Below are positions 7,001-53,546 of a stretch of DNA of 64,000 bases, in pieces; position 1 is the first letter of the stretch; each line of letters starts with the position of its first letter. Below the pieces are notes generated by a model that had not been told where the DNA came from, ran no database searches, and saw nothing but the letters and a program-made list of their open reading frames with translations. A program made the position numbers and the translations under genes. The stretch comes from Draconibacterium orientale (lineage in GTDB: Bacteria; Bacteroidota; Bacteroidia; Bacteroidales; Prolixibacteraceae): NCBI RefSeq assembly GCF_000626635.1, contig NZ_CP007451.1:620001-684000 (forward strand), in the 5' to 3' direction.

Positions 7001-7275
7001 GTAATTACCCCATTGTTTGTTCCTTTTACCACAACGGTAACACCAGGGAGAGGCGCCCCGCTGTTGTCAGTTACTTTTCCAGAAACTACATTTTGCTGAA
7101 CATCAGACACCTCTGTGTTATCCCGATTTGAATCAGAATCGCTGACATTCGATGAAGTACTGGCTGAAACATGAGTGAAACTTGTTAGCAGAAGAATTAA
7201 TACAAGTTTCATCGCGAGCAATAATTTCTTTTTCCTGTTAAAATACAGAAAAAAACAAGTTGCATTTTTTTTCAT
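4030..7275 (-). CDS. SusC-like TonB-dependent outer-membrane transporter (pair 1)
   Basis: A 1081-residue SusC/RagA-family protein. A long basic leader precedes a hydrophobic signal (MKLVLILLLTSF). From about residue 65 there is a carboxypeptidase-regulatory-like repeat (VSGKVTDNSGAPLPGVTVVV), then the plug domain (PLVVVDGVKRDNI, ATIESVTILKDAAAVAPYG, GANGVILITTKKG). The TonB-dependent beta-barrel runs to the C-terminus (TTFGIDITF). There is no STN signalling domain, so it is not expected to talk to an anti-sigma factor. With SusD1 it should import oligosaccharides across the outer membrane. The 5' leader (7276-7420) contains two hairpins, one of them a terminator pointing antisense to this gene. 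An IS1595-family element lies 146 bp upstream and may have separated the gene from its original regulator. Confidence 0.96.
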   Translation of the reverse strand: MKKNATCFFLYFNRKKKLLLAMKLVLILLLTSFTHVSASTSSNVSDSDSNRDNTEVSDVQQNVVSGKVTDNSGAPLPGVTVVVKGTNNGVITDTDGSYSLSDVSPDNTLIFSFIGMQSQEVAVGNQTVINITMEVDVIGIEEVVTIGYGVQKKTTVTGAISTVKGEELAKVPVPNISQALAGKLAGVSMRPNGGQPGFDDPDIHIRGVVTTGNSDPLVVVDGVKRDNIRQVDPATIESVTILKDAAAVAPYGIGGANGVILITTKKGTAGKPVVRLTSSYGIQNPTYLPEMLNAQDYMALQNEGYYNLTPNGTTPPNNPDLIADYPNLHRQDPDLYPDSKFIDHWNTNVPVQNYNLEFSGGSSKFNYHAGLGYYDQAGIVDKINYKRYSYNISLGLQATNTTKVSMSIHGSIEDTDELDPGESTRGGHLFRTFYKFVPIQTLLYSDGEHWGESSASSPIAALKSDGYTLINRKTLLTSITVEQELPFIEGLNFKGVFSYDPNIQRTKQWHLPFIYHVIDYSTTPYSFTEAQTTQEGWSPLYSYLRIEEERWSNFTYQAYLNYARTFGDHSVTGLLVAEARESTRDNFWTRRNNFAILIDEMDFGSSDKNDYDNGGASATGSEIGYVYRVGYSYMDKYLLEASGRYDGHYYFAPGERWGYFPAFSAAWRVSEEGFMADKGNINNLKLRASWGQSGMLAGEAFQYLAGYSLRGNAYAFGNGSLVQGSANESEPNPEITWEVSTKMDIGFDLNMWDGLLNLEFDYFHEKRTGMLLAPQVTLPVEYGLDLSEENKGEMKNNGIEINASSVYNVNDDMVIGLSANFSYAKNQMVEVFQSDAQANNPNRTLVGQPFGTPYGYKALGLFTTAEDTNGDGIINSADGYNVEQFGELHPGDIKYADLSGPDGVPDGKIDSNDETKIGYPVYPLMTFGFTPTLEWKNLDVALFFQGAAKASIRTYQFMTVPFENNGSNTSYEYFDNRWTPENQNAKYPRATPSPYNNNTQQTDFWMVNTNYLRLKTATIGYTLPNRITDKLGIGDVRCYVTGQNVFTISKLKHVDPEMGYDLRETAYPVMRSTTFGIDITF

Positions 7276-7303
7276 AAATTCAAGTATTAAAGTTATAATT
7301 AAC

Positions 7304-7317
7304 GGTGTTTTTACACC
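7304..7317 (+). promoter_or_regulatory. Small hairpin in the susC1 leader
   Basis: GGTGT / ACACC with a TTTT loop, 5-bp stem. It lies between the susC1 start codon and the plus-strand terminator at 7331-7365. The leader of susC2 has the same order (small hairpin, then terminator), which is why it is recorded. Confidence 0.35.
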
Positions 7318-7330
7318 CGAGATTTAATTT

Positions 7331-7365
7331 GCCCGGTAATTGTTGGCGCAACTGCCGGGTTTTTT
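7331..7365 (+). terminator. Rho-independent terminator antisense to susC1
   Basis: On the plus strand CCCGG pairs with CCGGG, with an inner GTTG/CAAC stem closing a GCG loop, followed directly by TTTTTT. No plus-strand gene lies upstream, because susC1 occupies the minus strand back to 4030. The simplest reading is that it ends an antisense transcript starting near or inside the susC1 start. On the minus strand the hairpin is followed by no T-run. Confidence 0.6.
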
Positions 7366-7420
7366 ATTCTTATTTATTTTCTAAATCATTAAAAGTGCCC
7401 TCCTTTTACTTATTATCTTT

Positions 7421-7488: not shown

Positions 7489-8397
7489 ATGAACCTATTT
7501 ACTTTCACAGCACATTTTGATAGCGAGGAAGCTTGCCGAAACCATTTTAAAGAGGAAAGGGACAAGGTAGGTGTAGTCTGCAAGGAATGTGGACATACAG
7601 AGCATTACTGGATAAAAAGTCGCTGGAGTTACGAGTGCAAAAAGTGTAGACACCGTACTTCATTGCGTAGTGGCACTATAATGCAGGGATCAAACCTATC
7701 GTTCATGATCTGGTACAAAACCATGTTCTTAATGACTGCCACCAAAAAAGGTTTTTCCAGCAAGGAAATCCAAAAGCAACTTGGAATGAAACGCTATGAG
7801 CCTGTTTGGGCAATGGTACACAAACTTCGTAAAGCCATGGGTAACCGCGATGCGCGTTATACCTTGGAGGGGATGATTGAAATGGACGAGGGATATTTTA
7901 CAGTAGAATCTTCTGAAGTGGAAAAGTCGAGAGGGAAAAGAGGACGTGGTGCTGCAGGCAAGTCGCCGGTATCAGTAATGGCAGAGTCGGCTCAGCTTGA
8001 AGATGTAGAGACCGGGGAAAAAACAAGTCAATGCCGTTACTTCAAAGCCAGGGTTCTTGAGAGTCACCATGCAGATGAAATTAATGATACGGTCAGGGAA
8101 TCTTTTGATGAAAAAAGTATTGTATTTACCGACGACAGTACGTCTTATGTTGATATTTCGGATTATGTGGAACTTCATTTTTCTGAAAAGTCAAGCGAAA
8201 AGCTCACCAAAGAAACATTGCGTTGGGTTCATATTACAATAAGCAATGCTAAACGAAACTTCCTTGGTAATTACCACAAGATTAAGGGGAAATACCTTCA
8301 AATGTATTTGAATGAGTTCGTCTACAAGCTAAACCGGAGGTATTTTGGAGAAAAACTCTTTGACAGGCTGGTTATTGCTGGAATTACTGGACTATGA
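7489..8397 (+). CDS. IS1595-family (ISXO2-like) transposase
   Basis: A 302-residue DDE-type transposase. The N-terminus carries a zinc ribbon (CKEC at 31-34 and CKKC at 50-53), followed by a helix-turn-helix-like stretch (SSKEIQKQLGMKRYEPVWAM). The ISXO2-like catalytic domain starts with EMDEGYF (Asp133), continues with FTDDSTSY (Asp215/216), and ends with HITISNAKRNFLGNYHKIKG and YLNEFVYKLNRRYF. This order (zinc ribbon, HTH, DDE/N domain) defines the family, and the length is normal. The reading frame is intact, so the enzyme may be active. The stop codon lies inside the right inverted repeat. Confidence 0.95.
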   Translation: MNLFTFTAHFDSEEACRNHFKEERDKVGVVCKECGHTEHYWIKSRWSYECKKCRHRTSLRSGTIMQGSNLSFMIWYKTMFLMTATKKGFSSKEIQKQLGMKRYEPVWAMVHKLRKAMGNRDARYTLEGMIEMDEGYFTVESSEVEKSRGKRGRGAAGKSPVSVMAESAQLEDVETGEKTSQCRYFKARVLESHHADEINDTVRESFDEKSIVFTDDSTSYVDISDYVELHFSEKSSEKLTKETLRWVHITISNAKRNFLGNYHKIKGKYLQMYLNEFVYKLNRRYFGEKLFDRLVIAGITGL

Positions 8398-20199: not shown

Positions 20200-20853
20200 A
20201 TGGAGAACACAAACATTATAATTGTTGACGACCACAAAATTTTTAGAGATGGTTTGATACTATTGTTAAGCAATTTCGATTTTGTATCGGTTGTTGGCGA
20301 AGCAGCAAATGGAGAAGAGTTTCTGGAATTGATTGACAATGTAAAACCCGACATTGTTTTAATGGATATTAACATGCCAAAAATGAATGGCATTGAAGCT
20401 ACAAAATTAGCCCTGCAAAAATATCCTGAGCTAAAAGTTATTGCACTAACATCGTTTGCCGACGATGAATATATTGAGCAGATGATATCGGCCGGCGTTG
20501 AAGGCTACATGCTAAAACGCTCGGATATTGAAGATTTTGAAAAAGCCATAAAAAAAGTTGCCGACGGCGGAAGCTACTTTTCTGCGGAAATTATAAAAGT
20601 AATATCGCGCAATTTGTATAAAGAAAAAGAGCGCAAATCGGGCGAACAATTACTTGATAAATTTACTCCGCGCGAAAAAGAGATCCTGAACCTGATTTGT
20701 AAAGGGCTAAACAATGAGCAAATTGCTGAACTCATTCATTTAAGCCCTAAAACAGTAGAAAAACACAAAAGCAACCTCTTCCAAAAAACCGAAACTTTTA
20801 ACACCGTTAACCTGGTTATTTACGCGTTTAAAAACCAGCTTATTTCGTTGTAA
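20200..20853 (+). CDS. NarL/LuxR-family response regulator
   Basis: A 217-residue regulator. The N-terminal receiver domain has IIIVDDHKIFRDGL, the phospho-acceptor Asp56 in IVLMDINMPKMNG, and the conserved Thr/Lys region (ALTSFADDEY, YMLKRSD). The C-terminal LuxR helix-turn-helix reads FTPREKEILNLICKGLNNEQ then LSPKTVEKHKSNLFQKT. It should be phosphorylated by the upstream kinase and bind DNA as a dimer. The target genes are unknown; no clear repeat resembling its site was found near the neighbouring operons. Confidence 0.95.
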   Translation: MENTNIIIVDDHKIFRDGLILLLSNFDFVSVVGEAANGEEFLELIDNVKPDIVLMDINMPKMNGIEATKLALQKYPELKVIALTSFADDEYIEQMISAGVEGYMLKRSDIEDFEKAIKKVADGGSYFSAEIIKVISRNLYKEKERKSGEQLLDKFTPREKEILNLICKGLNNEQIAELIHLSPKTVEKHKSNLFQKTETFNTVNLVIYAFKNQLISL

Positions 20854-20901
20854 CAGCTCGTTTTTACATTCAACAAAAAACGGATAGTGCAAACTTCTGA
20901 A

Positions 20902-20994
20902 ATCGAGTAGGAGGAAAATAAAATAGTTTTCCTCCTACTTTATTTTCCGACCTCTCACACCACCGTACGTACGGTTCTCGTATACGGCGGTTCC
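20902..20994 (-). ncRNA. Group II intron domains V and VI
   Basis: Minus strand: GCCGTATACGAGAACCGTAC begins domain V, pairing with GTACGGTGG. Then GAGAGG pairs with CCT(A)CTC leaving a bulged A about 7 nt from the end, the branch point of domain VI. An internal hairpin of 12 bp (AAAATAAAGTAG / CTATTTTATTTT) caps domain VI. Confidence 0.8.
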
Positions 20995-20998
20995 TTAA

Positions 20999-22417
20999 TT
21001 AACAACTTCTTACCTTACGATAACAATCCGAAAAGAAAACGTAGCCAGTAATTCGTAACCTTTCATTGGTAATGGAGGTAGAAAGGATCCAGCTATGCGC
21101 TAATCGCCAATAGCCTTTCCTTGTATTCGCCCACTCCCATGCCTTGTACTTATTTACACCCAACTTAATCAGGTTCTTACCCTTGGTCTTTATTCGTTTC
21201 CATTGTTTCCAAATAACCATGCGCAACCTTCGACGATACCATTCATCAACTTTGATTAGAAGCTTCTGCATATCTGCCAGCTTGAAGTATTGCACCCAAC
21301 CAGTGACGTACTGCCGGAGCGCAACCTTTCTTCGGTCGTTTCCCCAACCGTTACTGCGGGATGTAAGTTCTCTGATTCTAGCTCTCATCTTATCCACACT
21401 TCTCGGGTGAATGCGCAGCCTGCCTTTCCCTCTAAATTTCCCTCTAAATTTATAGAAAGAGTAACCAAGAAACCTAATGTTCCTGTTTGATGCAACCTTA
21501 CTCTTGTCCCGATTGACTATTAAAAACAATTTCTTTTCAATAAAAGGAACGATGTTCTTCATTGTCCGTTCGGCACTTCGTTGGCTTCGGCAGAAGATGA
21601 CCAGGTCGTCGGCGTAGCGAACAAACTTATGGCCCCGCTTCTCTAGTTCCCTGTCCAGTTCATTAAGAAAAATATTACTCAATAATGGACTTAACGGTCC
21701 TCCCTGCGCCACCCCTTCATAGCTTTCTTCAAACTTACCGTCCTTCATCACTCCTGCATTAAGGTATTTATGGATAAGCGATATGACCCGCCCATCTTTT
21801 ACCTTTCGGGATAATACCTCAATGTGTTTGCTGTGGCATACTGTGTCAAAGAAACGTTCGAGGTCTAAATCAACTGCATAACCACAACCTTGCGTGATGT
21901 AAGCCTGCCATTTTTGAAGTGCCTGATGGGCACTGTGTTTTGGACGGAAACCGTAACTGTGATCCGAAAACTCGGGGGCAAAGATCAACTGTAGTTGTTG
22001 TGCGATACTTTGTTGGATAACCCTGTCTACGACTGTGGGGATACCCAACTGACGCTTCTTCCCGTTTTCTTTAGGTATATCCACCCGTCTCACAGGATTG
22101 GGGCGGTATTTACCTTTATGAATAGAGGCCAGTAACTTATCCTTGTGACAGACAAGATAATCCTTTAAGGATTCAACTTGCATCTTATCAACACCTCCTG
22201 CTCCTTTATTCCGCTTAACTTGTTTGTAAGCTGTGTTTAGGTTGGAGGATGAAAGGATACGTTCTAACAATCCATTCTCTGACTGATAGTTGGGAGTGAG
22301 GTTGTTTTCTGTTATCTCTATAAAAGTCTGCCCTCCCGCATAGCCTTCGGATGCCGTCCTATTCTTTTGCGGACAGGTCTTCGAATCATCAAAGATTTTC
22401 TGCATTGTTCCTTTCAT
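20999..22417 (-). CDS. ltrA: Group II intron reverse transcriptase/maturase
   Basis: A 472-residue intron-encoded protein. The N-terminal RT motifs include NKGAGGVDKMQ, QLGIPTVVDRVIQQSIAQQL and YGFRPKHSAHQAL. The active site reads KFVRYADDLVIFC, and VAQGGPLSPLLSNIFLN is the RT-4-type motif. The thumb/maturase part contains VIWKQWKRIKTKGKNL and NTRKGYWRLAHS, typical of class C proteins. There is no HNH endonuclease domain, as usual for IIC. The frame is intact. The first 40 or so residues are weakly conserved and the true start might be internal. It should splice and mobilise its own intron RNA. Confidence 0.95.
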   Translation of the reverse strand: MKGTMQKIFDDSKTCPQKNRTASEGYAGGQTFIEITENNLTPNYQSENGLLERILSSSNLNTAYKQVKRNKGAGGVDKMQVESLKDYLVCHKDKLLASIHKGKYRPNPVRRVDIPKENGKKRQLGIPTVVDRVIQQSIAQQLQLIFAPEFSDHSYGFRPKHSAHQALQKWQAYITQGCGYAVDLDLERFFDTVCHSKHIEVLSRKVKDGRVISLIHKYLNAGVMKDGKFEESYEGVAQGGPLSPLLSNIFLNELDRELEKRGHKFVRYADDLVIFCRSQRSAERTMKNIVPFIEKKLFLIVNRDKSKVASNRNIRFLGYSFYKFRGKFRGKGRLRIHPRSVDKMRARIRELTSRSNGWGNDRRKVALRQYVTGWVQYFKLADMQKLLIKVDEWYRRRLRMVIWKQWKRIKTKGKNLIKLGVNKYKAWEWANTRKGYWRLAHSWILSTSITNERLRITGYVFFSDCYRKVRSC

Positions 22418-22828
22418 TGAGTAACATTCATTTACTTCTCACTCATTAAGGTTCGGCCCTTCCCATAAGTTGTCGGTTATGGTACTATGGCCTCGGCTGA
22501 CTTCTCACGATAAATCTTTTCCAACCGTGTTTCATACTCTGTTTCCACACCTCCGTGAGACCTCCCGCGGTAAGATAAATAACTTTCATTCCATCCTCCC
22601 GCACCATCTACACTCCAATGTCCGTGTAGTTTTGGACTTCGTTTTGTTTGGCAAACTTATCCCATTGGAAATGCCTAATGATGTTCGTGTTCCTCGGGTC
22701 AGAAATTTGCTTTCAGCTTCCTTCAGATTCCACCTCACGATGGACACCCTTGCCTTCGGCTAATGGTTGGCACTACAAACCCCCATTCAGGACTTTCACC
22801 CTATAGCTATTTACCATGCACGGCACAC

Positions 22829-44161: not shown

Positions 44162-45649
44162 TTAATAACCAGGATTTTGTTCCAATAATGGATTTGCATC
44201 AATTGCTGATTGCGGAATTGGGAACCACACATGATTAGCTGTAGCATTTGTGATACCTCTGCTTTGAGCATTTTCAATGTACTGTCCCGTACGGATTAAA
44301 TCTCTTCGTCTCTTCCCTTCGTACCAGAATTCCCAAAGACGTTCATTTAGGATTTGTTCTCTTAAGAGATCTTTCGATCCTAAATCTGTTAACGATTTAT
44401 TTTCCAGTCCAGCTCTGGTACGAATTTGGTTTACAAGATCTACGGATTCCTGGGTAGGACCATTCAGCTCATTCAAAGCTTCAGCCCTACTCAACAGTAT
44501 CTCTGCATAACGGATCATAGGCACGTCATTCCCATGTGAACTTCCCGATGCGTCAGGATCAGGAGGATATTTCATTGCCCGGGTACAATCAGTATAATCC
44601 AACAAATTAACTGTATTTCCCTGGGTATCAATATAACGTGTAAGAATTCTGCCTTTTCGCTGATCATTCGCTTCAAAACTGTTATAAAATGAATCGTATA
44701 AACGATAGTTGGATGCAAAATTTGACCATTTTTCATTTACTACTCCTTCTAATCCACCATCTAGTCCTTCCTTATAAACAGCAGGGAAAGATGGAGCTGC
44801 TGTTGCCCAGAGTGTATTGTTGTTGCCAGCATTCGCCAATTTGGTTTTTACAAGAATAAATTCTTCATTCTGCTCATTTTCCAGTGCAAACATGTCATTA
44901 TAATCAGGATATAAACTGAAATATCCATCGGAAATAATATCCTGAGCAATATCGGCACAATTTTGCCATTGATGGGAATTTAAATACCAAATGCAAAGCA
45001 GTGCCTGAGCTCCCCCTTTATGGTGACGACCATAGGCCGGCTCATCTCCAGGTTCGGGCAGAATGGGAATGATTTCCTTTAGCTCAGCTTCAACAAAACT
45101 CGCGAATTCTTCATTTGTAGCACGAGGAAGCTCTAATTCATCAGCCTGACTTTTCCTTAACGGCATAGGACCATATTGATTCCATAGCTGATAATAAGAC
45201 CAAACTCTTAAAAACCGGGCTTCTGCAACTATCTGGTTTTTATCCTGTTCATTATTAAAATCGGATACGTTATCTACACTCTCAAGAATAATATTGGCAT
45301 CTCTAATCACCTGCCAATAATTCATCCAGTCAAAAGCCTCTAACGTACTGGAAGGATCCCATCTAAATCCAATTAAAGGTGCTGCAGTTCCATTCTCTCC
45401 ACCTCCTGATTGCCATAAAATATCAGCGGTCATTTCTTCCCGTTTGACAACATCTCGGGTCATAATTACATTATTATTCCTTGCATAGGCATCAGCCATA
45501 AGTGATTCAATACCTTTTTTAGTACTTAAGAGGTTTTCCGAGGCAAATTGCGATTGAACAGGTTCTTCAAGAATCGACTCGCAACCATGCAACAACAAGA
45601 TTGCAATGAAGGCGATTAATATATTTTTTAATTTATATAATGTTTTCAT
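44162..45649 (-). CDS. SusD-like outer-membrane glycan-binding lipoprotein (pair 2)
   Basis: A 495-residue lipoprotein (ILLLHGCES, Cys23) of the SusD/RagB family. Typical segments: NQIVAEARFLRVWSYYQLWN, YAEILLSRAEALNELNGPTQ, LVNQIRTRAGLENKS, EFWYEGKRRRDLIRTGQY, and the end NPLLEQNPGY. SusD3 shares RAEALNELNGPTQESVDL and the EGKRR-DLIR block, so pairs 2 and 3 are duplicates. It is encoded 24 bp after susC2. It should bind the target glycan at the cell surface and pass it to SusC2. Confidence 0.96.
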   Translation of the reverse strand: MKTLYKLKNILIAFIAILLLHGCESILEEPVQSQFASENLLSTKKGIESLMADAYARNNNVIMTRDVVKREEMTADILWQSGGGENGTAAPLIGFRWDPSSTLEAFDWMNYWQVIRDANIILESVDNVSDFNNEQDKNQIVAEARFLRVWSYYQLWNQYGPMPLRKSQADELELPRATNEEFASFVEAELKEIIPILPEPGDEPAYGRHHKGGAQALLCIWYLNSHQWQNCADIAQDIISDGYFSLYPDYNDMFALENEQNEEFILVKTKLANAGNNNTLWATAAPSFPAVYKEGLDGGLEGVVNEKWSNFASNYRLYDSFYNSFEANDQRKGRILTRYIDTQGNTVNLLDYTDCTRAMKYPPDPDASGSSHGNDVPMIRYAEILLSRAEALNELNGPTQESVDLVNQIRTRAGLENKSLTDLGSKDLLREQILNERLWEFWYEGKRRRDLIRTGQYIENAQSRGITNATANHVWFPIPQSAIDANPLLEQNPGY

Positions 45650-45673
45650 TTTTAATTACTTTTTAGTTTAAGA

Positions 45674-48600
45674 TTAAAAATCAAGTTTTACTCCAAATAT
45701 TAAAGTCCTTGCGGTTGGATAGGCATTAAAGTCGATCCTAAAATTGGCATTATTATTTGGGTTTACAGCCGGATCTAGTCCTATATAATCCGTTATGGTG
45801 TATAGGTTCTCGCCCGTAACATATACCTGTCCAGACTTAATAAATTTATTTATACGAGGTAAATTATAGCTCAATCTTACGGTTTTGAGTCTTACATAAG
45901 ATGCGTCAAGCAGCGTATTCGAATTCGCTACTTTTCTACCAAATTTTAAAGGATCAACAAAAGAAGGATATTCATTAGTTGGATTATCAGGAGTCCAACG
46001 ATTCAGGTATATCTCGGCAATTTTGTTCCTTCTGAAATTGATAGGGAAATAATTATCAATTACGTTTCCGTTCAACATGTCTACACCTTGTACTCCTTCA
46101 ATAAATACGAATAAGCTAAAATCTTTATAATTAAAGGTATTACCCATTGACCATTGGAAATCGGGAAATGAATTCCCTAAAACAACTCTATCCTTATCAG
46201 TAATTACACCATCTCCATCCTGATCAACATATTTTAAGTCTCCGGGCTGATAATCCTCGGTAAACTGACTATAATCGTCTCCTACCTGCCAAACACCATC
46301 AACTTCATAGCCGTAATAAGAGTTAAGAGGTAAACCCGGTTTAATAATAGCAACCTGCTCTACGTGTGTATATCCTGCACCAACAATAATTTCAGAAATT
46401 CCTCCCAATTCCTTAACCTCATTTTGCATTGTAGTAAACGTAAAATCTGTTCTCCAACTAAAATCCTGAGATGTTACATTAACTGTGTTTAGCGACAATT
46501 CCCATCCTCTATTATCAATTCGACCTACATTTGATAAAATGCTGCTAAATCCTGTAGATTGTGGAATTGGTAAATAAAGGAGCATATCTGTTGTCTTTTT
46601 CCTGAAATAATCAACACTTCCATTTACTCTGCCTTCAAAAAGGCCAAAGTCTACTCCAAAATCTATTTGCTCTGTAGTTTCCCATTTTAGATCAGGGTTT
46701 GGGATTCGAAGAGGTGCTGTTCCGGTTACCTGACTGCCATTCCAAATTGCGGTTCCACCTTCACCAAAGGTACTCAATGAAGGGAAATTACCAATTTCCT
46801 GGTTACCTGTTTGTCCCCAGCTAGCTCTTACTTTCAGATTACTTATATAATCAACACTCTTAATAAAATCTTCATTAGAAGCCTTCCATGCAAATGCAGT
46901 TGATGGGAAATATCCAAATTTATTATTTGTTCCGAAGCGCGATGATCCGTCAGCACGAATGGTTGCTGTAAGAAGGTATTTATCATTCAATGAATAATTT
47001 ACCCTTCCAATATAAGATGCTAGCCTATTACCAGTCAAGAAGTTACTAATTTCAAAGGTTGATTGGTCTCCAATTCCAAGGTTATTAGCTCCCAATGATT
47101 CATTTGGAAATCCTTTAGCCACATTACTCAGACCATTCGTAACGAAGCGTTGATAGGTTGTTCCTGCCATTGCACTGATAGAGTGAATATCAAACGTTTT
47201 CGAATAATGAATCGTTCCTTCAACCAAGTAATTGCTTTTCTCAACATTTTGATTTGAGGCTACTCCTCCATTATTGCGGCCTTCTTTAGTAAGACCGTTA
47301 ATAAAGCTTTTACGACTTTCATTTACAAAATCACCTCCAATATTCAGTTTTGCATATAAATCAGAAGTAAAATGATATTCTCCATACATAGAAGCCATCA
47401 TACGGTTCGTATTTGACTCTGAACTCATACCTTCAGAAACGGCAACGGGATTATCTACCGTTAAGAAAGGAGATAGTGCATAGTCTCCATTATCATCGAA
47501 TACCGGTAAAGTTGGGTCGAAATTATAGGCAGAGTATAAAGGTCCGGCATGCTCATTTATTCCAAAACCATTTGCAATAAAGTGATCCTGTGTGTATGTC
47601 CCAGTTGCATTAAAGCCAATATTGAATTTGTCTGTAAGATCCGATTTCAAATTAATTCTTGCACCGTATCGGCTAAAATCGGTATTCTTCATAATCCCTT
47701 CCTGATCCATATAGTTTAAGGATATATAGTATGAAGTCTTTGGGGTACCCCCAGAAAATGAAAGTTGATGATCGTGTACCAAAGCATTTGCGTTATTGAT
47801 CTCATCCTGCCAGTCCGTGCCTAAACCGCCATTGGCAATATCTCCTACTATCGATTCCTCATTTCCTCCTCCGGCTGCAATAATTTCATTCATTACTGTT
47901 TTATATTCTTCAGCGTTCAATAAGTCAAGTTTCCGTGAACGATTTTGAATTCCCAGGTAGCCCTGATAACTAACTTTCATATTTTCATTCTTCCCTGATT
48001 TAGTTGTTATCATTATAACTCCATTAGCTCCTCTTGATCCATAAATAGCAGTAGCAGATGCATCTTTTAATACCTCAATAGATTCAATATCTGAAGGGTT
48101 AATTGAAGCTAAAGGATTTCGAGGACTTCTATTTCCTCCAAAAGCATCAATTGAACCAGAACTTACTGGTCTTGAATTATCAATTGGTAATCCATCAATA
48201 ACATAAAGCGGACTATTTCCTGCATTAACGGAACTTGCCCCCCTGATATTAATAGAAATACCTCCGCCAGGTTCTCCACTACTTTGAACAACATTTACAC
48301 CGGCACTTTTCCCAAACAGCATCTGATCAACCGAGGTGGTCACACCTTCCTGTAATTCATCGACCTTAACCGACGAAACTGATCCGGTAATATCACTCTT
48401 TTTTATTGTACCATAACCAATGGCCACAACTTCTTCAAGTCCGATAGCATCTGCTTTCAATGTAATATTGATTTCGCTTTGGGCACCTACCTCCACTTCC
48501 TGTGAAAGCATCCCCACAAAAGAAAATTGTATTACATCAGTAGGTGAGATACTGGTCAGACTATAATTTCCATCAAAATCAGAAACTGTTCCACGTGTTG

Positions 48601-49060
48601 TTCCTTTCACAACAATTGTTACTCCCGGAAGAGGCTCTCCGCTTTCGTCGGTTACAGTTCCTTTAATTGATGATTGATCTTCCACAACCATTTCGTTTTC
48701 AGCAATAGGTGTTACGGCGATGTACCGATCGATTATCTCGTATTTGTATTTGTCTGCATCAAAAAGTTGTGAAAGCACATCATTGATATCTGCATCATTA
48801 AAAGTAACATTTACATGTTTGTTCATCAGATGCTCATCATACTTCAGCATGAAATAGAATTCAGTTTCATTTTCAATTTGCTCAATCACTTCTTTTACAG
48901 TAGCCTGTTCCATTGCCATGGTAATCTTTGTGGTTTGGGCATAGGAATCAGCAAATACGTTTAAGGTCAATAATAGGATTAGAAATGTAGTTAGTTTCAT
49001 AATCATTAAAACTTTTTTTAGTGGCCCACATAAATAAGGGCACTTGTCTGTTTTTTTCAT
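45674..49060 (-). CDS. SusC-like TonB-dependent transducer with STN domain (pair 2)
   Basis: A 1128-residue transporter. After the signal (MKLTTFLILLLTLNVFADSY) comes an STN (secretin/TonB N-terminal) domain at about residues 45-105 (TVKEVIEQIENETEFYFML, DINDVLSQLF). A carboxypeptidase-like repeat (IKGTVTDESGEPLPGVTIVV) follows, then the plug (GNSPLYVIDGLPIDN, SDIESIEVLKDASATAIYGS) and the barrel. The STN domain senses a loaded transporter and signals to a FecR anti-sigma factor, which is encoded directly upstream with its ECF sigma. This makes susC2 the regulatory centre of the PUL. A candidate antisense RNA lies across its leader. Confidence 0.97.
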   Translation of the reverse strand: MKKTDKCPYLCGPLKKVLMIMKLTTFLILLLTLNVFADSYAQTTKITMAMEQATVKEVIEQIENETEFYFMLKYDEHLMNKHVNVTFNDADINDVLSQLFDADKYKYEIIDRYIAVTPIAENEMVVEDQSSIKGTVTDESGEPLPGVTIVVKGTTRGTVSDFDGNYSLTSISPTDVIQFSFVGMLSQEVEVGAQSEINITLKADAIGLEEVVAIGYGTIKKSDITGSVSSVKVDELQEGVTTSVDQMLFGKSAGVNVVQSSGEPGGGISINIRGASSVNAGNSPLYVIDGLPIDNSRPVSSGSIDAFGGNRSPRNPLASINPSDIESIEVLKDASATAIYGSRGANGVIMITTKSGKNENMKVSYQGYLGIQNRSRKLDLLNAEEYKTVMNEIIAAGGGNEESIVGDIANGGLGTDWQDEINNANALVHDHQLSFSGGTPKTSYYISLNYMDQEGIMKNTDFSRYGARINLKSDLTDKFNIGFNATGTYTQDHFIANGFGINEHAGPLYSAYNFDPTLPVFDDNGDYALSPFLTVDNPVAVSEGMSSESNTNRMMASMYGEYHFTSDLYAKLNIGGDFVNESRKSFINGLTKEGRNNGGVASNQNVEKSNYLVEGTIHYSKTFDIHSISAMAGTTYQRFVTNGLSNVAKGFPNESLGANNLGIGDQSTFEISNFLTGNRLASYIGRVNYSLNDKYLLTATIRADGSSRFGTNNKFGYFPSTAFAWKASNEDFIKSVDYISNLKVRASWGQTGNQEIGNFPSLSTFGEGGTAIWNGSQVTGTAPLRIPNPDLKWETTEQIDFGVDFGLFEGRVNGSVDYFRKKTTDMLLYLPIPQSTGFSSILSNVGRIDNRGWELSLNTVNVTSQDFSWRTDFTFTTMQNEVKELGGISEIIVGAGYTHVEQVAIIKPGLPLNSYYGYEVDGVWQVGDDYSQFTEDYQPGDLKYVDQDGDGVITDKDRVVLGNSFPDFQWSMGNTFNYKDFSLFVFIEGVQGVDMLNGNVIDNYFPINFRRNKIAEIYLNRWTPDNPTNEYPSFVDPLKFGRKVANSNTLLDASYVRLKTVRLSYNLPRINKFIKSGQVYVTGENLYTITDYIGLDPAVNPNNNANFRIDFNAYPTARTLIFGVKLDF

Positions 49061-49067
49061 AAATTTG
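49060..49067 (+). promoter_or_regulatory. Antisense -7 promoter element at the susC2 start codon
   Basis: TAAATTTG fits TAnnTTTG exactly on the plus strand and overlaps the susC2 start codon. The nearest TTG (49044-49046) is closer than ideal for a -33 element, so the promoter call is tentative. Confidence 0.4.
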
Positions 49068-49073
49068 ACATGT

Positions 49074-49181
49074 TATTGGTAAATACTAAGTTTTATTTAT
49101 CAATGCTTTGCAGGTATTGGCTTACCTGTTAAGCTGAGCAGGCTAAAAATATTTCCAGTATTTTTGGCCTGTCGTTTTTTA
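49074..49181 (+). ncRNA. Candidate cis-antisense sRNA over the susC2 leader
   Basis: On the plus strand, opposite to susC2, a small hairpin CAGGTA-TTGGCT-TACCTG (49112-49129) is followed by a strong terminator. The terminator pairs CAGGC-T-AAAAATA (49140-49152) with TATTTTT-G-GCCTG (49160-49172) over 13 positions, and TCG and TTTTTT follow. With the -7 element at 49060 the RNA would be about 108 nt. No plus-strand gene lies upstream to need the terminator. Bacteroides PULs run by ECF/anti-sigma pairs are known to have such antisense RNAs, for example DonS in Bacteroides fragilis. It could repress susC2 by pairing with its leader. Confidence 0.6.
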
Positions 49182-49242
49182 GGAAGTATCTTTTTGTTTC
49201 ATAAGTCAGTGATAAGTTTGATTCGTTTTATAATTTCATTTC

Positions 49243-50220
49243 TTATTTCCAGTAAATTAAAGTCGGCTTGTTCGCCCTGGGGACAATCTCGTATTCCAGC
49301 GAAGTCGTTAATTTAAGCACATCGAGAATCTGATCTATTGGCTTGTTCTTCAAAATAGTACCGAAATACCGCTCATCACACAAACCTTCTTTTTGAATTA
49401 TTATCTCTACGTTATACCAACGTTCGATTTGTTTGGCGATGTAATCCATTTTTTCATTTCTGAAGGTCACCAGACCATCTTTCCATGATGTATACATTTC
49501 AGTATCTACTTTTCGAATTTCTATACTTGCTGTACTATCATTAAAGAATGCTTTCTCTCCAGGTTCCAGTTTCGATAGTTCATAGCCATTTTTATCAAGA
49601 AGGCCGATACTACCTTCAATTAACGTAGCTGTAAATTCCCTATCCTCGGGATAAGCCTGAATGTTAAACGAAGTTCCATATACACGTACGCCTAAGTAGT
49701 CAGATTTCACAGTAAACGGATGCTCAACATCCTTTTGAACATCGAAAAATGCTTCTCCTTCGAGATAGACTTCACGTTTCCCTGAACTAAATTCTGAATT
49801 GTATTGTAGACTAGTTCCTGAATTCAGCATTACTAGTGTGCCGTCGGGAAGTTCAATATTCGTCATTTGTCCGGCCGGGGCTGTAACAGCGAAAGACCTA
49901 GCATAAACATGCTCGTCTTTCTCGCCAAAGAAAAAATACTGTGCAATGGCACCAATACCAATTAACAAGATAAATACAGCGGCATTTTTTATGAATGAAT
50001 AAAGGAATCGTTTTTTAACTGGTTTAGAGAATTCCGGTTGTATATCGCTCCAGCTTACTCCTTCTTTATTTTCAAATTTCGACGTTAACGCCCAGATCTT
50101 TTTTAATTCAATAAACTCATTGCGGTGTTTTTCACTCTCATCGAGCCATTGAAAAAAGGTTTCTATTTCAGCCTCACTAGCTGTTCCCTGTAGGTATTTT
50201 ATGATGATATTATTATCCAT
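49243..50220 (-). CDS. FecR-family anti-sigma factor
   Basis: From the ATG at 50220 (MDNNIIIKYLQGTASEAEIE) the protein is 325 residues; the 23 upstream codons do not belong to the family. The N-terminal cytoplasmic part (about 1-70) should hold the sigma factor. One membrane helix follows (AAVFILLIGIGAIAQYFFFG, about 72-91), then the periplasmic FecR domain (SFAVTAPAGQMTNIELPDGT, LNSGTSLQYNS, EGEAFFDVQKDVEHPFTV) and a C-terminal DUF4974/STN-like part. The ECF sigma gene is 136 bp upstream and susC2 182 bp downstream, a classic trans-envelope signalling trio. Confidence 0.95.
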   Translation of the reverse strand: MDNNIIIKYLQGTASEAEIETFFQWLDESEKHRNEFIELKKIWALTSKFENKEGVSWSDIQPEFSKPVKKRFLYSFIKNAAVFILLIGIGAIAQYFFFGEKDEHVYARSFAVTAPAGQMTNIELPDGTLVMLNSGTSLQYNSEFSSGKREVYLEGEAFFDVQKDVEHPFTVKSDYLGVRVYGTSFNIQAYPEDREFTATLIEGSIGLLDKNGYELSKLEPGEKAFFNDSTASIEIRKVDTEMYTSWKDGLVTFRNEKMDYIAKQIERWYNVEIIIQKEGLCDERYFGTILKNKPIDQILDVLKLTTSLEYEIVPRANKPTLIYWK

Positions 50221-50356
50221 TTTTGTCTTTCTTGCTATATGTACACATAAATAAGATGATACCCTGTATATTAATTTGAAATTTTTCAATTTCGATTGAG
50301 AAACTGTGAAGAAGAGCCAGAATTTAAGAAGAAATATGATCGATCAGGACAACTTG

Positions 50357-50950
50357 TTAAAGCATCCATAAAACGAAAGGAAGTATATCTCTGAGTTCTT
50401 TTCTTAGGATCTTTATGGCGCGAGTAATGTTTGACTCAACTGATTTTATCGCGATACCAAGTTCATCAGCGATCTCTCTGTTTTTTTTGCCTTCAAATCG
50501 ACTTTTTTCAAATACGATCCTACATCTTTCGGGGAGTTTTTCAAGAGCCAACTGAATCATTCCTTCTAATTCCTGATATTCTAGTTTATTGAAATGAAAA
50601 GATTCAAGGATTTGACGATTTAAAAGATTCTCCTTTATTTTAAGTGTATTTTTCTGATACTCTGACTTATACTTTTCATGCCTTAAAAAATTAAGACATT
50701 CTGTTTTTGCCGCGGTGTATAAGAATGCACAAATTCCATTAATGGTATTAACTTCCTCTCGGTTTAACCACAACTTCACAAAAGATTGTTGAGCTATATT
50801 TTTGGCCTCTTCCCGATCAGGAATAAATTGTAGACAAAAACCAACGATCCGGTCATAATTGTCTTCGAAGATGATTTTAAAAGCATGCTCATCGCCCTTT
50901 TTAAACGAAGTTAAGTCGGGCAAAACCATATTTGAGTCAGCTAAACTCAT
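50357..50950 (-). CDS. ECF-family RNA polymerase sigma factor
   Basis: A 197-residue ECF sigma factor. Region 2 spans about residues 15-85 (FKIIFEDNYDRIVGFCLQFI, NIAQQSFVKLWLNRE, FLYTAAKTECLNFLRHEKYK). Region 4 spans about 125-190 (LEKLPERCRIVFEKSRFEGK, REIADELGIAIKSVESNITR). It should be held inactive by the FecR protein encoded next and released when SusC2 is loaded. It probably drives susC2D2 and the genes beyond. Its own promoter lies in the 128-bp gap after the sulfatase gene. The gene is intact. Confidence 0.96.
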   Translation of the reverse strand: MSLADSNMVLPDLTSFKKGDEHAFKIIFEDNYDRIVGFCLQFIPDREEAKNIAQQSFVKLWLNREEVNTINGICAFLYTAAKTECLNFLRHEKYKSEYQKNTLKIKENLLNRQILESFHFNKLEYQELEGMIQLALEKLPERCRIVFEKSRFEGKKNREIADELGIAIKSVESNITRAIKILRKELRDILPFVLWML

Positions 50951-51078
50951 TATTCATTTTATGAAAGTTCAGTTAGTAGCCGTGAAAATAGAAAATTAAT
51001 TAGACTTGATTACATCTTACGCTATTAAGTCAATTAAATGGAAAGATTAAAGTATGGTGCTTCATACTTTCCTGGTAT

Positions 51079-52506
51079 TTAATTTTGTAGTATCAGCGGA
51101 TCAAAATGCTTGCCTTGCCGGGCATTCTTCAATTCTTCCCTCGAATCAATTTCTGCTCCGGGATCGCCTTGTGCTTTCATCCATTCATCCAGTTTTTGTG
51201 AAAGATTTTGTTTTATTTCTCCCAAATCATCACGCCCGATCAGATTTTGCATTTCATTCGGATCGGCAGTCAAATTGTATAATTCTTCTGCTGGACGATT
51301 CTGGTAACGGGTTACCAAATCCAGTATCTCAGGATCGTCAGAAGCATCAAAAACCCATGAAGGCCAATACTGATTGAGAGGCATTCGTGCCATCAGGTGA
51401 CGTTCTATGTATAAGCTTTTCGGGCTTAGATTCCGGATGTAATGATAATTACCATCTGTAACCGAACGTATTGGATATGCCGGTCCTTCGGGTACATTAT
51501 TATGCATGAAATACGCATATTCGCGATGCGTTTCTTTTTCGCCTAATAACACGGGCAGAAAACTTGAACCGTCGAAGTCTGTATCCGATGTGTTTCCTAG
51601 GGCATCAAGTAATGTTGGTAATACATCGTTGTATTGGACAAGCGCATCCGTGCGACTGCCACTATTTACTTTACCGGGCCAGCGTACAATAAATCCGGTA
51701 TGCACACCATTGTTCCAGTTGGTCCATTTACAAAAAGGTAATTGCGCACCTTGTTCAGATGTAAAAATAACGATGGTATTATCCGAAATTTTCAGCTCAT
51801 CAAGCAATGCTATAGTTTCTCCAACTTGTTGATCCAGCACCTCAATTTCAGCCAGGTATTTAGCGAATTCGCGCCGAGTTTCTTTGTTGTCGGCAAGATA
51901 AGATGGAAGTTTCAATTCTTCGGGATTGAAATGTGACGGGTCGCCAACTGTCCATGGAATATGAGGCACCACCAATGCAGTTATCAAACAGAACGGTTGT
52001 TCCTTATCTCTTGCCATAAATTCTTTTAGTCCGGCAGGATCATAATTCGCTGTTTCCGAAACGCAGTTGCGCTCCACTCCTTCAACCATTTCAAAAGGAT
52101 AAACTTCGCGAGGATCGGCATGAACTTTACCTGCAATACCTACCCGATAGTTTAATTCTCCCAAATATTGAACAATACTTTGAGTTCCCGTGCGTGCAAT
52201 GGCATGGTTCCAGCAAACACCACTGTTAACCGGTTGCAAGCCCGTGTACAATTCGGCACGACAAGGCACGCACATCGACATGGTAACAAAGGCATTATTA
52301 AAAGTCATCCCCTGCGAGGCCAGTTGATCAATATGTGGTGTTTTTACATTTTGTCCACCGTAAAGTGACAGATCACTATGGGTGCAATCGTCTGCAATAA
52401 CAATTAATATATTAGGCTGCCCCTTTCTATTAACATCACTGGCATACAAATGAAATCCAAGCAGAATTAGAAGGAGGATAAAACAATATCTTGAAGTTTT
52501 TGTCAT
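51079..52506 (-). CDS. S1-family sulfatase with CVPCR active-site motif
   Basis: A 475-residue secreted sulfatase with a signal peptide (FILLLILLGFHLYASD). The active-site motif is CVPCRAELYTG: Cys79 is the residue to be converted to formylglycine, and position 4 is Cys82 in place of the usual Ser or Thr. IVIADDCTHSDLSLYGGQ has DDCTHSD where others have DDMGYSD. FTSEQGAQLPFCKW replaces the common FTSDNG. It resembles heparan-N-sulfatase-like members of S1 in layout. It is the last gene of the upstream block, 128 bp before the ECF sigma gene. No close paralogue is in the window apart from the short tail remnant at 39906-39932. Confidence 0.93.
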   Translation of the reverse strand: MTKTSRYCFILLLILLGFHLYASDVNRKGQPNILIVIADDCTHSDLSLYGGQNVKTPHIDQLASQGMTFNNAFVTMSMCVPCRAELYTGLQPVNSGVCWNHAIARTGTQSIVQYLGELNYRVGIAGKVHADPREVYPFEMVEGVERNCVSETANYDPAGLKEFMARDKEQPFCLITALVVPHIPWTVGDPSHFNPEELKLPSYLADNKETRREFAKYLAEIEVLDQQVGETIALLDELKISDNTIVIFTSEQGAQLPFCKWTNWNNGVHTGFIVRWPGKVNSGSRTDALVQYNDVLPTLLDALGNTSDTDFDGSSFLPVLLGEKETHREYAYFMHNNVPEGPAYPIRSVTDGNYHYIRNLSPKSLYIERHLMARMPLNQYWPSWVFDASDDPEILDLVTRYQNRPAEELYNLTADPNEMQNLIGRDDLGEIKQNLSQKLDEWMKAQGDPGAEIDSREELKNARQGKHFDPLILQN

Positions 52507-52562
52507 AAAATAATTTCGTTTAGTTCAATTAATATACTCAAAAAAAAATGATCTTACCTTCG

Positions 52563-53546
52563 TCATTTTTGCTCCATTATCGGCACTATTACTTTATCTT
52601 CTTTTACCTTGAATTTGTAAACATTATTGGCAGCATCCCATTCTTTTGCCACCGGCACTATTCGTGTCCTCCTTGGACTCACCTGATCCTGACCAAAATG
52701 AACATGGTATACATAATAGAGCTGGCCATTTAAACCTTCAAAAAAATCGCCATGCCCTGAACCATTTTCACCAACAATGGATCGATGAATAATCGGACTG
52801 TTTTCCTGCTTTATCCATGGGCCATAAGGCGAATCGGCAATTGCATACCCCACAGCATAGTCGATATTTTTAAAGTGATTTGCCGAATAAAACAGGTAAT
52901 ACTTATTCTTTAGTTTGATAACGGTCGGGCCTTCCATAATTGGTGCCGACTCAAAATTGGGTGTGGCTTCCCATTCTTCGGTCTGGTTGAAACATTTTGT
53001 AAGTGTTTCAGGCTTAATCTTTCCTTTTTTCAGATCAAACTCTGCTACCCAAAGAAAGTTACCATTATTAAAGCGGACATGATAGAGGTAAAACTTACCG
53101 TTATCATCTTTGAATATGAATGAATCGATATTCTTCTCGGAACCATCAATTGGTGCAACTTTTTTTTGACGATACGGCCCTAACAGCGAGTTTGACTTAG
53201 CTAGTACCGTTTGTTCATTTGCAGTATAAGTGAAAAAATACGTATCGTTGTTTCGAAATAGTTGTGGCGCCCAAAATCCCCGTTCGCCGTATACATGATC
53301 TCCCTTAGTTAGCAGCATGTGAACAGAACCGCTTGTACTTGCAGGTTGCGACCAGGTTTTTAGGTCTTTCGATTCCAGAATAGAAAATCCTAAAGGCTGG
53401 TCTTTTTGTCCGCCTGTACCGGTAAGATAGTAGGTATCGCCATCAACATAAATCGTTGGATCGGCAAAAAACAATTCTTTCTTTTCTTGTGCTGAAATCC
53501 TTACAACAACCAGTATAATAAGCGCCCAACTAAGAATAAATTTCAT
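52563..53546 (-). CDS. Glycoside hydrolase family 43 protein
   Basis: A 327-residue single-domain GH43 five-bladed propeller with a signal peptide (ALIILVVVRISAQ). The catalytic residues are the general base Asp29 (FFADPTIYVDGDTYYLTGT), the pKa modulator Asp141 (NIDSFIFKDDNGKFYLYHV) and the general acid Glu205 (APIMEGPTVIKLKNKYYLFY). Other propeller marks are GPYGPW and GSGHGDFFEGLNGQLYYVYH. GH43 enzymes are mostly alpha-L-arabinofuranosidases, beta-xylosidases or arabinanases. Here, next to a GH51 arabinofuranosidase, an arabinose-directed role is likely. The enzyme has no binding module. It should act in the periplasm. Confidence 0.93.
   Translation of the reverse strand: MKFILSWALIILVVVRISAQEKKELFFADPTIYVDGDTYYLTGTGGQKDQPLGFSILESKDLKTWSQPASTSGSVHMLLTKGDHVYGERGFWAPQLFRNNDTYFFTYTANEQTVLAKSNSLLGPYRQKKVAPIDGSEKNIDSFIFKDDNGKFYLYHVRFNNGNFLWVAEFDLKKGKIKPETLTKCFNQTEEWEATPNFESAPIMEGPTVIKLKNKYYLFYSANHFKNIDYAVGYAIADSPYGPWIKQENSPIIHRSIVGENGSGHGDFFEGLNGQLYYVYHVHFGQDQVSPRRTRIVPVAKEWDAANNVYKFKVKEDKVIVPIMEQK

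Follow-up and report, generated by a model that had tools for sequence, protein, structure and literature searches.

A predicted cis-antisense RNA in the leader of a FecR-linked susC gene of Draconibacterium orientale, with similar sequence signs at related loci across Bacteroidota

The window, by which we mean the whole 64,000-nucleotide stretch of D. orientale DNA that was analysed, carries on its minus strand an ECF sigma factor gene, an anti-sigma gene and the transporter gene susC2 with its susD partner, and by their Pfam matches two sulfatases and one GH43 surround these genes. The susC2 product matched the Plug, barrel and CarbopepD_reg_2 families of Pfam and TIGR04056 (937.8 bits), and its STN domain scored 19.4 bits, under the Pfam cut-off of 28.4. 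FecI, FecR and a TonB-dependent transporter form a cell-surface signalling system, and the gene order found here, ECF sigma factor, FecR and transporter with a weak STN match, is like that of this system; the FecR/ECF sigma pair presumably governs susC2. An earlier note, made from the letters of the DNA alone, had placed a candidate antisense RNA over the susC2 leader and stated that no plus-strand gene lies upstream of it; indeed, the plus strand contained no ORF of at least 90 aa between 43595 and 51054. The locus has the following features.

44162-45649, minus strand: susD partner, downstream of susC2 (Pfam SusD_RagB)
45674-49060, minus strand: susC2, TonB-dependent SusC-like transporter with a weak STN match, predicted target of the RNA (Pfam, TIGR04056)
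49060-49067, plus strand: antisense -7 box TAAATTTG of the type TAnnTTTG (sequence, conservation, controls)
49072-49182, plus strand: predicted antisense RNA of 111 nt (model R1, fold z of -7.06, covariation)
49075-49104, plus strand: stem-loop 1 of the antisense RNA (fold, 9 pairs)
49105-49134, plus strand: stem-loop 2 of the antisense RNA, apex TATTGGCTTA (fold, covariation)
49138-49172, plus strand: stem-loop 3, the terminator stem (terminator scan, fold, covariation)
49175-49180, plus strand: T6 tract of the intrinsic terminator (sequence)
49179-49202, minus strand: 7-codon mini-ORF (ATGAAACAAAAAGATACTTCCTAA, MKQKDTS; conserved length, substitution pattern)
49243-50220, minus strand: anti-sigma gene fecR, upstream of susC2 (Pfam FecR and FecR_C)
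50357-50950, minus strand: ECF sigma factor gene, fecI type (Pfam Sigma70_r2, Sigma70_r4_2 and Sigma70_ECF)

The -7 box overlaps the susC2 ATG (minus strand, 49060 to 49058), just where the earlier note had seen it. As the sigma-A -7 box of F. psychrophilum is given at -12 to -5 (PMC9723704, in the part available), we infer that the RNA starts at G49072, which is susC2 position -12, and the predicted 111-nt transcript is then complementary to the leader from -12 to about -122. Its intrinsic terminator ends just short of fecR: the 13-nt arms (49139-49151 and 49159-49171) are 92% complementary, forming 16 pairs if closed on a 3-nt loop, and are followed by the T6 tract, so that the plus-strand terminator with TTTTTT described from the letters was recovered. 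The "small hairpin" said to precede it is real in kind and wrong in number, there being two, stem-loops 1 and 2. The apex of stem-loop 2 reads TATTGGCTTA in the window and TATTGGCGTA or TGTTAGCGCA in relatives, and that of stem-loop 3 (49150-49160) reads TATTTCCAGTA. On the minus strand, no terminator-like site was found in the fecR-susC2 gap of the window, in agreement with the remark that the hairpin has no T-run when read on that strand.

The plus strand of 49074-49182 folded at -41.3 kcal/mol (z of -7.06), and 0 of 200 shuffled sequences were as stable. Generic searches were less informative. A terminator scan of 45000-53000 showed no overall enrichment (4 found, 5.3 expected), and the case therefore rests on conservation and controls rather than on this one site. 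The region gave nothing informative in a sigma-70 style promoter scan, and the -33 TTTG box gave no signal in 99 pooled promoters. Rfam at the gathering score gave no match at 49060-49182 in a search of the whole window; a permissive search of 48950-49300 gave rli56 as its best match, with 21.3 bits (E of 0.32) and below the gathering score of 47.

Using the FecR protein as query, we obtained 11 same-genus loci, the closest FecR homologues, with 54-70% identity. Their genus is Draconibacterium/Maribellus of the family Prolixibacteraceae, which NCBI taxonomy places in the order Marinilabiliales, and the earlier note was thus right in that taxonomy to speak of a different order from that of Bacteroides. 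The antisense terminator, whose lack of conservation in related strains would by the note's own account have refuted its reading, is kept in 11 of 11 of these loci, or 12 of 12 counting the window, and all 12 have TAnnTTTG in the corresponding position. We counted base pairs in an alignment of 13 sequences (A5), made of the 12 orthologous loci and one relative, L056; a 23-sequence MAFFT alignment (A4) was left out of the counts as stem-loop 2 was misaligned. Across 36 pairs, 95.7% of the cells were paired, and 11 pairs showed changes on both sides, in 47 cells. These 47 cells compare with 18.5 in shuffles (0 of 500 as high) and with at most 13 in slid versions of the structure, the latter comparison being favoured by the derivation of the consensus structure from the same alignment. 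The number of pairs changed on both sides was less striking, being reached by 31 of 500 shuffles, and the count of further pair types was not raised in the 13 sequences (463 of 500 shuffles). The changes were unevenly spread: stem-loop 1 (9 pairs) had 100% of cells paired and none changed on both sides, stem-loop 2 had 9 of 12 pairs changed on both sides with 87.8% of cells paired, and stem-loop 3 (15 pairs) had 2 such pairs and 99.5% of cells paired.

A covariance model (R1) was built from the 13 sequences and searched against 61 whole genomes with stricter filters, scoring 59 candidates per genome. The model scores 120.6 bits over exactly 49072-49182, a locus that is one of its training sequences. 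At E up to 0.01 it gave 17 matches, comprising the 12 training loci, four fecR-susC junctions outside the training set and one training locus matched on its opposite strand. In these genomes and at this threshold there was no match away from fecR-susC junctions. The only other R1 match in the window lies at 20827-20948 on the plus strand (20.7 bits, E of 0.041). It is partly opposite the end of a group II intron, pieces of which occupy 20902-22744 on the minus strand (Rfam RF02001, RF01998 and RF00029), and is probably due to chance.

To compare the locus with others in the phylum, we gathered 141 FecR loci, namely 42 (with one repeat dropped), 79 from a set of 194 relatives that two peptide patterns had found and of which the best 80 were kept, and 20 taken from many listed. 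Removal of 2 without a junction, 3 with a gene that was not SusC-like and 12 repeats left 124 junctions, all picked by similarity to the FecR of the window; the susC starts of L011, L063 and L065 were probably miscalled and were kept as called. The strict box CAAAnnTATG, which is the antisense -7 box laid over the start codon, was present at 87 of the 124 FecR-linked susC starts and absent from all 253 control ORF starts taken from 400 kb of the home genome, the control start being the first ATG and in some cases wrong. Allowing any antisense TAnnTTTG from -40 to +20, the numbers were 88 of 124 and 17 of 253. Terminators were counted in 120 gaps, 4 junctions with gaps under 60 being left out. 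Antisense terminators were found in 109 of them (18% in shuffled sequences) and sense terminators in 29 (2% in shuffled sequences); 27 gaps had terminators on both strands, 82 on the antisense strand alone and 2 on the sense strand alone. In control co-directional gaps, the count of terminators was 19 of 108 for each strand. Fisher values for these counts are only indicative, as related sequences are not independent.

Within the home genome, the 28 susC genes without FecR had no start-codon box, 2 cases of any nearby TAnnTTTG and 7 antisense terminator-like sites, whereas the 11 FecR-linked ones had the strict box in 5 cases, a relaxed box (T for C) in 8 and an antisense terminator in 10. As GCCTATGNNNTAA is not enriched genome-wide there (13 occurrences against 17 for the reversed control), the motif is meaningful only at fecR-susC junctions. 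Another susC gene of the window, susC1, has a leader hairpin at 7275-7400 (minus strand) whose antisense form, with the tip TGTTGGCGCA and then a T-run, fits the family; no FecR_C match lies nearby, only a degenerate -7 box is present (TAAATTCA), and the gene directly upstream encodes an IS1595-type transposase (7489-8397, plus strand).

The signs were weaker in a less biased sample of 69 loci from 61 genomes of the phylum, of which 29 were each the top match in their genome and 40 were picked, mostly from four picked genomes. After removal of 1 locus without a junction and 13 that were not SusC-like, the relaxed box was found at 16 of 55 starts and the strict box at 9 of 55 (L231 and L256 being one place), and antisense and sense terminators in 25 and 9 of 43 gaps, respectively. 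Thirty further junctions, chosen by score and without a SusC filter (one of them, L325, is the same place as L126), gave the relaxed box in 4 and the antisense terminator in 7 of 10 for Bacteroides sp. GM023, 5 and 7 of 10 for Parabacteroides goldsteinii, and the box in 1 and the terminator in 2 of 10 for Alistipes. Among 35 listed relatives, 26 had both signs, 5 the terminator alone (Echinicola and two Pedobacter loci included), 2 the box alone and 2, L079 of Parabacteroides and L128 of Larkinella, neither. Among the named loci with both signs are ones from Aquimarina, Flagellimonas, Flavobacterium, Chitinophaga, Sphingobacterium, Fulvivirga, Mariniphaga and Bacteroides.

The bases around the 124 susC starts look as if promoter and start codon shared them. 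T occupies -1 in 91%, C -7 in 81%, T -3 in 55% and A -6 in 83% of the loci, and A is also favoured at -13/-14. Of these, A at -6 and at -13/-14 fit the translation signal of Bacteroidota as far as it is set out in the available part of PMC6847099, whereas T at -3, T at -1 and C at -7 do not. Judged from base frequencies, the context is only partly a translation signal, and the antisense promoter would explain T at -1 and C at -7.

Three signs, the sigma-A box, the direction of the terminator and the folding, indicate that the plus strand is the one that is read. The better fold was that of the antisense strand in each of 104 junctions, which had been selected beforehand for having an antisense terminator; its median z was -5.3, against -3.6 for the sense strand. 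The pair closing the tip is U-G in 11 of the 13 aligned sequences for stem-loop 2 and in 12 of 13 for stem-loop 3, and its sense-strand counterpart would be C-A. The tip form URU-N4/5-GYA was found in 58 of 120 fecR-susC gaps on the antisense strand and in 11 on the sense strand; for the two strands of the control gaps the counts were 1 and 3 of 108 (co-directional) and 3 and 3 of 60 (divergent), and none of 22 convergent gaps had one. Stem-loop 3 of the window has a tip of this form; stem-loop 2 departs from it at the closing pair, which is not U-G.

Between fecR and the RNA lies the 7-codon mini-ORF, whose stop codon overlaps the T tract of the terminator. It is present in all 12 orthologous loci and in 11 further relatives, the latter chosen for having a 7-codon ORF; L065, a 48% FecR homologue, showed none. 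In the 23 listed relatives, its end conforms to [ND]-[TS]-[STG]-stop in 20, and its stop lies 5-8 nt from the hairpin in 22 and 12 nt in L070. Single-base codon differences were synonymous in 249 of 616 cases in the mini-ORF frame, compared with 91 of 612 and 111 of 566 in the other frames, and substitution in this frame appears to be of the coding type. Other junctions have GCCTATG followed by a stop at once or after one codon, in frame in 31 of 38 and in the other frames in 4 and 0. Taken together, such mini-ORFs occurred in 93 of 109 junctions, against 26 after shuffling of the bases. GCCTATG was also considered as an ECF -10 element, and in 39 sequences no second element at promoter-like spacing was found upstream of it, only an enrichment of A at -14 to -12, the place at which the translation starts of F. 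johnsoniae have an A-rich stretch (PMC6847099, available part). Because of this A-rich stretch, the in-frame stops and the lack of a second promoter element, we read GCCTATG as the start of the mini-ORF; its -3 base is C, and it may have a double role with the ECF -10. With composition considered, k-mer searches upstream of susC gave no shared ECF promoter candidate beyond GCCTATG and the start-codon box.

DonS and PUL-associated cis-antisense RNAs of Bacteroides were reportedly described by Cao et al. in 2016. PULs of the DonS type are, as the earlier note has it, governed by an ECF sigma/anti-sigma pair, and the RNA of the window likewise lies beside ECF sigma and FecR genes. In the accessible parts of the papers, the PUL-associated antisense RNAs of Bacteroides are cis-antisense, divergent to susC homologues and 78-128 nt long (PMC7366714), they are of the DonS type at 15 PULs of B. 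fragilis (PMC9723704) and number 32 annotated ones in B. thetaiotaomicron (PMC10994844), and DonS-type RNAs repress PULs (PMC11697453, PMC7366714, PMC10994844), the mechanism of the prototype DonS being described as unknown (PMC11697453). The predicted RNA resembles them in being cis-antisense and divergent to a PUL susC homologue, in its predicted length of 111 nt and in having a promoter and a terminator of its own, which are predicted from the sequence with no -33 box seen. The earlier note's idea of an RNA equivalent to DonS is thereby supported, the likeness being one of description and not of compared sequence or structure. Unlike in the Bacteroides DonS type, the layout is found in Marinilabiliales and the sequence signs in genera such as Aquimarina, Flavobacterium, Chitinophaga, Sphingobacterium and Fulvivirga. 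The FopS and GibS sRNAs, which act with RbpB, are likewise small RNAs of Bacteroidota aimed at susC translation starts; the FopS family numbers 14 paralogues, each about 65-70 nt long and mostly intergenic, which bind to susC mRNAs from several PULs (PMC11697453, available part), whereas R1 matched the RNA of the window once in the home genome.

We consider it very probable that 49072-49182 encodes a functional antisense RNA, and probable that this RNA, cis-antisense and about 111 nt long, holds susC2 expression down; that it acts mainly as a cis repressor of susC2 also appears likely, if a little less so. The housekeeping sigma factor would transcribe the RNA by default, and the RNA would pair with the leader of susC2, beginning at -12 and running upstream, and would mask part of the A-rich stretch at which ribosomes dock. 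Translation would be blocked, or the duplex would be open to attack by RNases. Sensing of the glycan would lead FecR to free the ECF sigma factor, and sense transcription would rise. As the antisense promoter lies on the start codon, sense and antisense transcription would compete where the gene is most sensitive, and a sense RNA polymerase crossing the start codon would also silence the antisense promoter, giving a sharp switch. Repression by such an RNA is not guaranteed, as the PUL antisense RNAs of B. thetaiotaomicron include both negative and positive correlations to their PUL (PMC10994844, available part).

It is unlikely that the promoter matters and the RNA does not, antisense transcription repressing susC2 by collision or blocking only. 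Such transcriptional interference would fit a start-codon box that faces the incoming sense polymerase and a terminator that stops the antisense transcript before fecR, but a by-product would need neither three conserved stem-loops, of which two show compensatory changes, nor a common apex. Still less probable is that the structures are an element of the sense mRNA leader, or a sense terminator behind fecR, of which the antisense reading is a mirror image. The sense leader does fold (minus strand of 49061-49242, z of -3.61, close to the median of -3.6 for the sense strand of the 104 junctions), and sense terminator-like sites occur in 29 of 120 gaps against 2% in shuffles; yet terminators stand on the antisense strand alone in 82 gaps and on the sense strand alone in 2, the U-G pairs of the tips turn into C-A mismatches on the sense strand, and the TAnnTTTG box on the start codon stays unexplained.

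We also think it quite unlikely that action in trans is the main role of the RNA, whether its targets are other susC mRNAs or it works through an RNA-binding protein recognising the shared hairpin tip. The tips themselves speak for such a role, with 58 of 120 on the antisense strand of fecR-susC gaps against 11 of 120 on the sense strand, 1 in 108 co-directional control gaps and 3 in 60 divergent ones, as does the repression of susC genes of B. thetaiotaomicron by FopS RNAs from other loci (PMC11697453, available part). On the other side, R1 found no copy outside fecR-susC junctions at E up to 0.01 in the 61 genomes (with stricter filters and 59 candidates per genome), and, given full complementarity, the RNA's own leader would be the simplest target. 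Repression of susC2 in cis remains our preferred reading. As a tentative extension of it, the FecR-linked susC genes across Bacteroidota may have inherited a two-part leader switch, in which the start-codon antisense promoter with its tip-bearing RNA is combined with a translated mini-ORF of 0-7 codons at the distal end of the RNA. Ribosomes ending the mini-ORF would sit against the complement of the terminator hairpin and thereby control whether antisense RNA and leader can pair, which would couple translation to regulation by the antisense RNA.

We know of no antisense RNA in the classical FecI/FecR system, unlike which the locus of the window has a predicted one inside the transporter leader. 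As we read it, the RNA belongs to a kind that is known already, the PUL antisense RNAs of Bacteroides; apparently new are the spread through the phylum, the promoter on the start codon, the shared URU-N4/5-GYA tip and the conserved mini-ORF. The literature covered, to which subscription journals mostly, Cao et al. 2016, the F. psychrophilum antisense supplement and a Segatella copri RNA study did not belong, gave no PUL-linked antisense RNA outside Bacteroides, no such start-codon signature and no such mini-ORF; for F. psychrophilum, 287 antisense regions are listed (PMC9723704, available part).

A clean test is possible because mutations in the leader can remove the start-codon promoter and leave the protein untouched. 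An unexpected element of the fecR-susC gaps is the mini-ORF, which also comes in start-stop forms. If the layout holds, CAAAnnTATG at a susC gene behind fecR would be a short signature predicting such RNAs, and the PUL antisense RNAs would be an old and widespread layer of control on one class of glycan importers.
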